Below, one piece after another: positions 1,002 through 36,839 of a DNA stretch of 64,000 nucleotides. Made by a program: the position numbers and the translations under genes. The notes under the pieces were generated by a model. That model ran no database searches. It worked only from the letters and a program-made list of their open reading frames with translations, and was not told the origin of the DNA. Location of the stretch: assembly GCF_000423465.1 (NCBI RefSeq), contig NZ_KE384021.1, positions 279,290 to 343,289 on the forward strand. The letters are read 5' to 3'. This DNA comes from Propionicicella superfundia DSM 22317 (lineage in GTDB: Bacteria; Actinomycetota; Actinomycetes; Propionibacteriales; Propionibacteriaceae). Each line of letters opens with the position of its first letter. Position 1 is the first letter of the stretch.

Positions 1002-1030
1002 TTGACAACGTGCTGTCGTCTTCCTAGGGT
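1002..1030 (+). promoter_or_regulatory. Strong sigma-A-type promoter of the peptide/ABC operon
   Basis: A perfect -35 hexamer TTGACA (1002-1007) is followed after exactly 17 nt by TAGGGT (1025-1030), a good actinobacterial -10. Transcription would start near 1037, giving a leader of about 43 nt before the small ORF. A perfect -35 element is rare elsewhere in this window. Confidence 0.7.
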
Positions 1031-1040
1031 TGGGCCCCAT

Positions 1041-1060
1041 GTCGCCTAGAAATAGGCGAT
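1041..1060 (+). promoter_or_regulatory. GAAA-tetraloop hairpin in the 5' leader
   Basis: TCGCCTA (1042-1048) and TAGGCGA (1053-1059) pair perfectly around a GAAA tetraloop; a G-U pair extends the stem to 8 bp. The hairpin lies just downstream of the predicted transcription start and ends 9 nt before the AGGAGG ribosome-binding site at 1070-1075. It could stabilise the mRNA 5' end or bind a regulator. There is no T-tract, so it is unlikely to be a terminator. Confidence 0.6.
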
Positions 1061-1079
1061 CTGACCCTCAGGAGGCACT

Positions 1080-1199
1080 GTGCGCAAGCTGCTGTCGTCG
1101 ACACCGACGGGTGTCGAGCGACTGATGACCGCTGACAAGGGCCGTGACGCGGGCCAGGCCGTCGAGGAGCGCATCCTTCACGATCGTGAGGATTGGTGA
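1080..1199 (+). CDS. 39-residue small protein or leader peptide ahead of the ABC genes
   Basis: A GTG start is preceded 4 nt upstream by a perfect AGGAGG and runs 39 codons to a TGA at 1197-1199, one base before the ATG of the ABC ATPase, so the two are probably translationally coupled. The peptide is hydrophilic, begins MRKLLSSTPTG and ends in HDREDW. It has no transmembrane segment, no cysteine and no obvious signal peptide. The strong promoter, hairpin leader and ideal ribosome-binding site argue for real translation. It could be a precursor of an exported peptide, a substrate or partner of the transporter, or a leader peptide controlling downstream translation. I do not recognise a family. 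Confidence 0.55.
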   Translation: MRKLLSSTPTGVERLMTADKGRDAGQAVEERILHDREDW

Positions 1200-1200
1200 G

Positions 1201-1809
1201 ATGCGTCTCGACGTGAGTTCTCTGACGTACATCTACAAGTCCTCCCGGCGGGGCTGCCGCGATGTGGGGTTCGCGGCCGAGGACGGCGAGATCGTCGCCC
1301 TCATCGGACCTTCGGGGTGCGGGAAGTCGACGGTGCTCGCGTGTGTCGCGGGCGTTCTCACCCCCGACGCGGGGACGGTCGAGGTGGTCGGAGGCGGCGA
1401 TGGCGCGTCGACCTTCCTGATGCTGCAGGCGGCCCCGCTGTTCGAGGGTCTGCGACTGTGGGAGAACGTCGCCCTCGGCTACGGCTATCCGGCCAGGCGC
1501 CACCGCGTGTCGGCCGTCGCGAGGCTGGCCGAGGTCGGGCTGGAGGAGTGCGCCGACGACAGGCCGTCGCACCTCTCGGTGGGCCAGCGTCAGCGCGGCG
1601 CGGTCGCGGTGGCGCTCGCGCAGCCCGGTCGGGTGCTGCTGTTCGACGAGCCGACCGGCAACCTGGACGACGACAACGCCCGGCGGGTGATGGACGGCCT
1701 GCGGTCCGCGGCCGGGACCGGTCGTGTGGTCGTGATGGCGACCCACGACCGCCGGGTGCTCGCCGAGGCCGACCGGGTCGTCGATCTTGCCGTGGCGGGT
1801 GCGGCATGA
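1201..1809 (+). CDS. ABC transporter ATP-binding protein, LolD/MacB type
   Basis: A 202-residue stand-alone nucleotide-binding domain. It shows Walker A (GPSGCGKST, residues about 35-43), a signature region reading LSVGQRQRGAVA (LSGGQ variant), Walker B with LLFDEPTGNLD and the switch histidine in ATHDR. The EPTGNLD form is typical of the FtsE/LolD/MacB group, which powers mechanotransmission rather than simple transport. The ATG at 1201 directly follows the small-ORF stop, and the gene end overlaps the permease start as ATGA, so the three are one operon. The likely role is peptide or lipid export, or self-protection at the membrane. The substrate is unknown. Confidence 0.85.
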   Translation: MRLDVSSLTYIYKSSRRGCRDVGFAAEDGEIVALIGPSGCGKSTVLACVAGVLTPDAGTVEVVGGGDGASTFLMLQAAPLFEGLRLWENVALGYGYPARRHRVSAVARLAEVGLEECADDRPSHLSVGQRQRGAVAVALAQPGRVLLFDEPTGNLDDDNARRVMDGLRSAAGTGRVVVMATHDRRVLAEADRVVDLAVAGAA

Positions 1810-3059
1810 GCAGCGAACGTCCGGACGCCCGTCGTGTTGCCGCCGGGCGATTCCCCGGGGTGACCGGGTGGCTGCGGCTCAGTCTGCGCCGCGGCTTCGC
1901 GTCCAGCCGTGCGGTGCTCGCGACCACGCTCGTCGGATCGCTCATCCTGACGGCGCTGGTGCTGCCGGCCGCGACCGCGGTGGCCGCTGTGAGAGCGCAG
2001 ACCGAAGGGTCGGCCGCGTCGCTCAACACCATCTCCATCTACGGTGACGGCGCGGCCGAGCAGCCGAGGCTCACCACGGCCCGGCGCACGGAGATCTCCG
2101 CCGTCGACGGGGTCGACGCCGTCACGTCCTTGGCCACCGCGTCGATCAGCGCGACCGAAGGCGAGCCGTGGCTCGGCCAGGTCCACGTCCTGCGCCCGAG
2201 CCTGTTGCCTCCGGGGATCGATGACGAAACGGCCGCCCGGGTGACCGCCAGGGCCGTGATCGCTCCGCGCGTCATCGAGGGGGTCGACCTGTCGAGGTAT
2301 GTCGGCACGTCGATGCCGGTCGAGTACACCCTGGGCACCGCCGAGAACACGGGCACCGGGGCCGAGACACAGGTGACGCTGCTGGCCGTCTACGACCCCG
2401 GCTGGACCGGCTACGGCCCGAACGCCATCCTCGGGTCCGAGGAGTTCGTCGTGTGGCTCCAGGCCCAGCGGTACCGGAAGTCCGTCGCCGAGATGCAGGA
2501 CGTCGAGGGTGCGCCCGGCGTCGTCGTGCATGTGTCCAGCGCGAAGCAGGTCGACACCGTGATGGCGCAGTTGCGGTCGATGGGGTTCGCCCCGTTCAAG
2601 GACAGCGACCAGATCGGGGACCTGCCCGGACTCCTGGCGATCTTCCCGTCTCTCATCGTCGTCGTCTCCGTGGGTCTGGGGCTCATGCTCTGCTTCCACG
2701 CCGTCTCGGCCGTGCGCAACGCCACGGCGCGGCGGACGCGCGAGTTCGCGCTGCTGCGGATGCGCGGCTACCGGGTGCGGGACGTCCGGGCCCTGATGGT
2801 CGCCGACATCGGGTTCGGAGCGGCGGTCGGCGCGCTCGTGGGCGCCGTGGCGGGGCTGCCGCTCGGGTGGTTGCTGGCGTTGCGTCTCACCCCCGAGGAA
2901 CTGCACCTCTCCTGGACGAGCGGCACCCTGGTCCTGGCGGCCGCCATCGGGGCCGGCACCGTCGTCGTCGTCACCGTCGTCGCGGCGGTGACCGCCGCGA
3001 TCACGACAGCGCGCCTGCTCCGCACCGATCCGTTCCTGCTCATCACCCGCGAGAACTGA
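1806..3059 (+). CDS. ABC transporter permease, FtsX/MacB type
   Basis: A 417-residue membrane protein with the FtsX/MacB layout. One N-terminal transmembrane helix (about residues 35-60) is followed by a large extracytoplasmic domain of about 220 residues, then three C-terminal helices (about 280-305, 335-360 and 378-403). The segment with RTREFALLRMRGY between helices 2 and 3 matches the cytoplasmic coupling loop of FtsX-like permeases. The start codon overlaps the stop of the ATPase gene. With one ATPase and one such permease the complex would be a homodimer of each. No peptidase or sensor-kinase genes are nearby, so the cargo is not indicated. Confidence 0.85.
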   Translation: MSSERPDARRVAAGRFPGVTGWLRLSLRRGFASSRAVLATTLVGSLILTALVLPAATAVAAVRAQTEGSAASLNTISIYGDGAAEQPRLTTARRTEISAVDGVDAVTSLATASISATEGEPWLGQVHVLRPSLLPPGIDDETAARVTARAVIAPRVIEGVDLSRYVGTSMPVEYTLGTAENTGTGAETQVTLLAVYDPGWTGYGPNAILGSEEFVVWLQAQRYRKSVAEMQDVEGAPGVVVHVSSAKQVDTVMAQLRSMGFAPFKDSDQIGDLPGLLAIFPSLIVVVSVGLGLMLCFHAVSAVRNATARRTREFALLRMRGYRVRDVRALMVADIGFGAAVGALVGAVAGLPLGWLLALRLTPEELHLSWTSGTLVLAAAIGAGTVVVVTVVAAVTAAITTARLLRTDPFLLITREN

Positions 3060-3064
3060 ACCCG

Positions 3065-3134
3065 GACGCGCCGAACGCTCCAGAACCCCCGGAATTCGGC
3101 TGGAATCCGGGGGTTCTGGAGCGTTCGGCGCGTC
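3065..3134. repeat. Convergent-gene palindrome, copy 1 (bidirectional terminator)
   Basis: Two perfectly complementary 29-nt arms (3065-3093 and 3106-3134) enclose a 12-nt loop. The arms contain CCGAACGCTCC and its complement. It sits between the permease (+) and SDR (-) stops. Related palindromes occur at 32286-32347 and 36765-36822, also between converging genes, with shared sequence CCGARCGCTCC and an inner CCGGA/TCCGG. It probably ends transcription from both sides. Confidence 0.8.
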
Positions 3135-3179
3135 GGGCGACGGCGACGGCGGGACGAACGGGTCGACCCGCCGGACGCG

Positions 3180-4370: not shown

Positions 4371-4393
4371 ACTACGACACCGCGTAGTACTGT
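4371..4393 (+). promoter_or_regulatory. Putative BlaI-type operator over the cydA promoter
   Basis: ACTACG (4371-4376) and CGTAGT (4383-4388) form a perfect 6-bp dyad with a 6-nt spacer, resembling the TAC/GTA-rich dyads bound by BlaI/MecI proteins. TACTGT (4388-4393) lies 7 nt before the cydA ATG and looks like its -10 element, so a bound repressor would block RNA polymerase. On the other strand the dyad covers the expected -35 area of the repressor gene. Confidence 0.55.
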
Positions 4394-32150: not shown

Positions 32151-32395
32151 TTTCGGATTCCGGCCGCGGGTCGTCGGAGGTCGCCGGAAAACACATGTGA
32201 ATGACAGTCGCGGAGTTTGCTCCGCGTGCGGTCGGCCGAAGGGGAAATGTTCCCCATGCGCGGTCGGCCGCATTGTCATGCCCTCCGCCGAGCGCTCCGA
32301 AACTGCCGGAAAACCGCCGGAATCCGGCAGTTTCGGAGCGCTCGGCGAATCCCGGAGGACGGGGGACGGAGGACGGGGGGCGGGGGGACGGGGGG
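32151..32395. other. 245-nt spacer between convergent genes
   Basis: It contains palindrome copy 2 (32286-32347). The rest is a G-rich purine tract (32353-32396, runs of GGGGG separated by AC or GA) directly before the EtfD stop. No gene is seen. Confidence 0.5.
32286..32347. repeat. Convergent-gene palindrome, copy 2
   Basis: Perfect 25-nt arms (32286-32310 and 32323-32347) surround a 12-nt loop. The outer arm reads GCCGAGCGCTCCGAAAC. It lies between the FAD oxidase (+) and EtfD-like (-) stops. Loop length equals that of copy 1, and the inner stem ends CCGGA/TCCGG in both, while some arm bases differ in compensating pairs. Confidence 0.8.
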
Positions 32396-36724: not shown

Positions 36725-36764
36725 CCGGCCCGATTCGCCGGTCCGCAGCGACGCACACAGTCCA

Positions 36765-36822
36765 CCGAGCGCTCCGAAACCGCCGGAAATCCGCTGATTT
36801 CCGGCGGTTTGGGAGCGCTCGG
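36765..36822. repeat. Convergent-gene palindrome, copy 3
   Basis: Arms of 27 nt (36765-36791 and 36796-36822) pair at 26 of 27 positions around a 4-nt loop. The outer arm reads CCGAGCGCTCCGAAACC. It lies between etfA (+) and the FCD-regulator gene (-), ending 18 nt before the latter's stop. Confidence 0.8.
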
Positions 36823-36839
36823 CGCGGTGCCGGGGAGGT

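Follow-up and report, generated by a model that had tools for sequence, protein, structure and literature searches.

A 39-codon leader frame is probably coupled in translation to an orphan ABC transporter gene of Propionicicella superfundia

In the genome of Propionicicella superfundia DSM 22317, a frame of only 39 codons stands directly in front of the ATPase gene of an ABC transporter. What does such a short frame do at this position? The original prediction, which was made from the letters of this DNA alone, left three options for its product: an exported peptide, an accessory subunit or a regulatory leader. We examined the locus within a stretch of 64,000 nucleotides, hereafter called the window. 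A promoter-like site, the 39-codon ORF, the ATPase gene, the permease gene and a long palindrome follow each other in this order. Four smaller elements lie among them, of which hairpins H2 and H3 were absent from the original prediction and were found here by folding. The features are as follows, each with its basis in brackets:

1002-1030, plus strand: promoter-like site TTGACA-17-TAGGGT, with a -10 of the TANNNT type (sequence)
1041-1060, plus strand: hairpin H1, 7 bp plus a G.U pair with a GAAA loop, at the presumed 5' end of the mRNA (folding)
1070-1075, plus strand: AGGAGG Shine-Dalgarno (SD) of the short ORF, spaced 4 nt from GTG 1080 (sequence)
1080-1199, plus strand: 39-codon leader ORF MRKLLSSTPTGVERLMTADKGRDAGQAVEERILHDREDW, starting with GTG (codon score; SD plus ORF rare in shuffles)
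1094-1122, plus strand: hairpin H2, within the leader ORF, its 12 bp interrupted by one bulge (-19.2 kcal/mol, z -3.4)
1160-1213, plus strand: hairpin H3, 54 nt, in which the 3' part of the ORF is paired with the ATPase start (about -27 kcal/mol, z -3.5 to -3.7; at z -3.7, -27.6 kcal/mol)
1201-1809, plus strand: ABC ATPase, 202 aa (PF00005, 83.5 bits)
1806-3059, plus strand: FtsX/LolC-type permease, 417 aa, whose start overlaps the ATPase stop in ATGA (PF02687)
3062-3137, no strand assigned: long palindrome with 32-nt arms, 97% complementary, between convergent genes (sequence)

The promoter that had been claimed for the operon is indeed present, with TTGACA at 1002-1007 and, after 17 nt, TAGGGT at 1025-1030. 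This is the single occurrence of TTGACA-N16-18-TANNNT in the 64 kb, where 0.02 would be expected by chance. TAGGGT is identical to TATAAT at only three of six positions, and a stricter promoter scan of the window did not list the site. Judging from its position, transcription of the operon would be expected to start at about 1036-1038. A terminator-like site (940-956) lies between the upstream gene and the promoter-like site. At the other end of the operon, the palindrome faces a convergent short-chain-dehydrogenase-like gene and is a probable two-way terminator. The operon contains no regulator gene, and an Rfam scan of the window gave no match.

The core of this palindrome (3069-3130), which the original prediction did not mention as such, belongs to a dispersed family of 62-bp palindromic elements of fixed geometry; further copies in the window are at 32286-32347 and 36761-36824. 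The end motif of the repeat, CGCCGARCGCTCC, has 43 + 46 occurrences in the 3.6-Mb genome versus 1 + 0 in the control. The end motifs often form inverted pairs 49 nt apart, with interiors that are variable but self-complementary. Most copies lie behind a gene or where two genes converge (the latter holds for six of the ten checked), and any other same-family genome searched holds at most 11 copies of the motif. Arrays of a 31-33-nt unit are also present. The element looks like a genus-specific family of repeated terminators or REP-like sequences. Farther downstream there is another palindrome, ACTACG-ACACCG-CGTAGT (4371-4388), between a regulator frame on the minus strand (about 4344-3945), which we take to be BlaI/CopY-like, and a gene starting at about 4402, presumably cytochrome bd oxidase-like (cydAB-like). 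To our eye this palindrome resembles a BlaI-type operator, suggesting that the presumed BlaI-like regulator controls cytochrome bd.

The transporter itself is an orphan FtsX-domain ABC system of the LolC/MacB superfamily, judged from its domains. The ATPase carries the nucleotide-binding motifs GPSGCGKST, LSVGQ, LLFDEPTG and ATHD. The permease had been called FtsX/MacB-type, which is borne out by its C-terminal FtsX domain (PF02687, 37.4 bits where the cut-off is 25.5, enough for superfamily membership) and by profile matches to LolC, YtrF and MacB. Among solved structures, the nearest relatives of the permease profile are LolC (E 6e-4) and YtrF (E 9e-4), followed more weakly by PsdB, LolF and MacB; a structure prediction for the permease had a mean pLDDT of 56.7, too low for fold searches. 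With an ATPase and a permease that ends in an FtsX domain, the system resembles LolCDE, MacB, Ytr and the lactococcin 972-type exporters. Unlike related operons, it has no partner membrane or lipoprotein gene, and its scores for the named families are far below the curated cut-offs: the ATPase reached 108.9 bits for the lactococcin 972-type exporter (TIGR03608) versus 254.85, and the values for LolCDE and MacB proper were 93.5 versus 307.75 (LolD), 87.7 versus 966 (MacB) and 13.7 versus 362.45 (LolC/E).

Relatives of the operon were searched for in genomes of the same family (Propionibacteriaceae), none of them from another species of the genus, and in a sample of the class. They are rare: beyond its own genome, the permease has clear relatives in three same-family genomes and in one genome of the class sample (L063/L065). 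In the first of the three (L033/L107), the permease is about 30% and the ATPase 43% identical, and a gene with 361 codons or more ends 3 nt before the ATPase. The other two (L034/L108 and L035/L109, the latter directly after a PASTA-repeat-like gene) are decayed copies of the operon with the ATPase cut short and the permease in pieces, which suggests frequent loss. A search of plasmids with the permease gave no match, nor did a scan of contigs with the single permease protein; a contig scan with the permease alignment gave the same three operons and four distant matches. In the same genome, about 68 kb upstream, there is a four-gene set (L064, 5795-9662, minus strand) that encodes a secreted-looking protein of 155 aa, a lipoprotein-like one of 509 aa and, after them, an ABC ATPase with an FtsX-domain permease. 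Its layout is like that of bacteriocin-export operons, and its first two proteins have no family match.

In the related operons, the ATPase is preceded by a larger protein that looks secreted or anchored, and these proteins have no recognizable likeness to each other; here the short leader takes their place. The expectation of a conserved short ORF upstream of orthologous ATPase genes was not borne out, since none of the three same-family operon copies, the nearest relatives, has a comparable one. The leader ORF therefore appears, as far as can be seen in these genomes, to be lineage-specific.

Is the short frame translated at all? Both the perfect AGGAGG and the 39-codon ORF were found where they had been described, and the ORF indeed ends one base before the ATPase, with TGA at 1197-1199, one base, and ATG at 1201. 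When 874-1200 was dinucleotide-shuffled 2000 times, 10% of the shuffles had an ORF of at least 30 codons whose end lay within 12 nt of the ATPase start, and only 0.35% had such an ORF together with a GGAGG SD, by a criterion that was chosen post hoc with the case already seen. At 0.30 bits/codon, the codon use of the leader ORF exceeds 94% of antisense windows free of stops and falls at the 14th percentile of same-length windows from real genes. Stops interrupt the two remaining plus-strand frames of the leader stretch, whose scores are -0.57 and -0.90. An upstream start of the ATPase at GTG 1144 was considered and rejected, as the score of that frame (plus frame 1) is non-coding. Opening the start region of the leader ORF costs 5.9 kcal/mol in a 90-nt context. 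In longer foldings the pairing of its SD varies and the SD can be paired, as it mostly is in a 264-nt fold. A CCTCC at 1242-1246, in the coding start of the ATPase, can be read as a possible long-range partner of the leader AGGAGG; such a pairing is possibly chance, possibly feedback. Overall, codon use, SD and frame support translation of the leader ORF, short of proof.

If it is translated, the peptide could matter in its own right. A functional small protein, either an exported substrate of the transporter or an accessory subunit, would agree with the coding-like codon use. It would also agree with the larger gene found directly before the ATPase in L107, L070 and probably L065, and with the secreted-looking and lipoprotein-like genes that precede the ATPase in L064: a larger gene in related operons marks this as the position where partners are encoded. 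The peptide itself argues otherwise. It is hydrophilic (7 K/R and 8 D/E in 39 residues); its sequence shows neither a signal peptide nor a membrane segment, and neither Cys nor double-Gly; and it bears no likeness to the proteins encoded upstream in the related operons, which also led us to reject the ORF as a remnant of such a gene. It has no match in Pfam, NCBIfam, PHROGs or plasmids, so that the earlier statement that its family is not recognized holds in these databases, and no convincing relative in 198 same-family genomes, where the best match (E 0.006) was a longer frame with an internal stop and was judged to be chance. We also found no modification enzyme among the neighboring genes read, and rejected a precursor of an exported or ribosomally made modified peptide, for which there is no precursor family, export leader or likeness to related exported proteins. 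Of the three options of the original prediction, then, the exported peptide and the accessory subunit are not supported by the sequence, with no signal or membrane segment, family or convincing relative, and we consider a functional small protein unlikely. The regulatory leader is the best-fitting option, because the 3' end of the ORF pairs with the ATPase AUG, which translation of the ORF is predicted to release.

A different view of the leader is that its structures act as DNA. Two perfect palindromes (1042-1059 and 1098-1117) lie immediately downstream of the promoter, and 874-1200 holds 2 perfect stems of at least 7 bp versus 0.17 in shuffles. They might be operators of a transcription factor, with the ORF a chance frame in GC-rich DNA; one shuffle in ten, after all, also has an extended frame that stops at the ATPase. 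On the other hand, a genome search gave no close copies elsewhere, and we rejected the palindromes as shared operators: at 2 mismatches, 1042-1059 had 21 matches in the genome and 33 in the control; at 3 mismatches, 1098-1117 had 21 and 12, none closer than 2 mismatches. The missing regulator gene speaks against operators, the codon score and SD disfavor a chance frame, and H3 would be left unexplained, which makes this explanation very improbable. The first of the two palindromes is hairpin H1, which had been described as a GAAA-capped leader hairpin of 7-8 bp and was recovered as TCGCCTA-GAAA-TAGGCGA (1042-1059) plus the pair G1041.U1060. Folded alone, H1 has -11.9 kcal/mol and z -6.4, with z only -1.1 in a 55-nt folding window, and it leaves the SD at 1070 free locally. 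Its role is probably, and we say so tentatively, to stabilize the 5' end of the mRNA.

An indication of what the frame does came from H3. In three sequence contexts, the ATPase AUG (1201-1203) pairs with 1172-1174, inside the leader ORF, with a probability of 0.89-1.0. Freeing the ATPase start region when no ribosome is present costs a computed 16.1 kcal/mol, versus the 5.9 of the leader ORF's own start. Of the 41 starts called in the window just 3 are costlier, and there may be miscalls among them; among 22 closely spaced gene pairs in the available genome stretches (median 10.0) only one exceeds the ATPase start. H3 proved stronger both than recodings with synonymous codons under genome codon usage, which leave the encoded protein or proteins unchanged (p 0.01-0.034), and than permutations of the ORF's own codons (p 0.023); these tests were picked once the fold had been seen, and the synonymous p values are modest. 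H2 is borderline against the synonymous-codon null (p about 0.05-0.06), and for the entire leader (1080-1215) the stability is no more than genome codon usage would lead one to expect (p 0.32).

We then asked the same folding model what a ribosome would do to this lock. A 29-nt ribosome footprint was moved along the ORF, in a simple model that includes neither kinetics nor pseudoknots. With the footprint at codons 1-12, the ATPase start stayed closed (15.7-16.7 kcal/mol), and at codons 13-32 the opening cost never fell below 10.9 kcal/mol. It was about 4-7 kcal/mol at codons 33-37 and 0 at codons 38-39. As computed, therefore, the leader shows the occluded downstream start freed by upstream translation that characterizes coupling by RNA unfolding. 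It also has the form of coupled leaders, a short ORF with its own ribosome-binding site and a stop within a few bases of the next start.

We consider it likely, from the sequence and from this modeling, that the 39-codon frame is translated as a leader ORF and that translation of the ABC ATPase is coupled to it. Since the ATPase start codon is buried in the hairpin, a ribosome finishing the short ORF most likely unlocks the transporter. Ribosomes would load at AGGAGG and read the leader ORF, and the one reaching its end would melt H3; either re-initiation at AUG 1201 or entry of a new ribosome there would follow, and the ATGA overlap would pass translation on to the permease. The leader peptide itself would then probably be a by-product. 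The 4-nt spacing of the leader SD is short and counts against this coupling. Moreover, the SD of the ATPase (GUGAGG, 1186-1191) lies mostly in the five-base apical loop of H3, and because it is unpaired in this tip, the ATPase could conceivably be initiated independently. The architecture is read from the DNA and the energetics are computed; from these we infer the coupling itself, along with its efficiency and any regulation.

Could the leader also sense something? With two hairpins within or overlapping the ORF and a transporter downstream, it might be an inducible translational attenuator, in which an exported drug or peptide, or a nutrient shortage, slows the leader ribosomes and alters the opening of H3, much as in the erm/cat leaders or mgtQ. 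GTCGAG is common to the 3' arm of H2 and the 5' arm of H3, so that a short alternative pairing between them is possible, which would fit such a device. The footprint scan speaks against it, since pauses at codons 1-32 keep the cost of the ATPase start at or above 10.9 kcal/mol; an early-pause attenuator of the erm/cat type, where a pause before the leader end frees the start, was rejected on this ground. Neither an arrest motif in the leader ORF nor conservation was recognized, and attenuation seems to us unlikely. A regulated switch at the very end of the ORF is a slimmer chance still: a substrate or stress might alter termination or re-initiation there, the SD in the H3 tip might dock a waiting ribosome, and a single event at codons 33-39 might turn the transporter on. 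Coupling of the leader ORF to the ATPase would make this locus a clear and testable case: where RNA structure locks the start codon of a gene, a GC-rich actinobacterium could still translate it by way of an unannotated short frame that would deliver ribosomes or clear their way. It is also a caution for annotation, as such short frames are not to be read as peptides. The lesson concerns annotation and gene control instead of a new system, and its interest is modest unless the leader is regulated.

The layout is a known kind of gene control, and this leader is a further example of it. Leader genes that raise the translation of the next gene via ribosome re-initiation have been proposed as boosters, Actinobacteria included (Korolev et al. 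2016, PMC4833913), and translational coupling by RNA unfolding or re-initiation has been reviewed (PMC12548453). Like the leaders in these two papers, ours is a short unannotated ORF with its stop a few bases from the structural gene, whose occluded start can be opened by upstream translation. Unlike in PMC4833913, the gap here is 1 base, versus a peak of 10-11 bp for Actinobacteria. A further difference from the leaders in these two papers is that here the AUG is the paired element and the SD of the downstream gene occupies the tip of the hairpin, a configuration that is computed in our study. An experimental case is mgtQ-mgtB of Salmonella, in which translation of a small ORF frees a transporter start held in a stem-loop (PMC8092293). 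mgtQ has 8 codons and lies between genes within an operon, whereas our frame has 39 codons and lies at the 5' end of one. For mgtQ, alternative stem-loops and ribosome-destabilizing acidic codons were tested experimentally, whereas early pausing in our leader predicts no opening. What the two share is the arrangement itself, a small ORF ahead of a transporter gene whose start region sits in a stem-loop.
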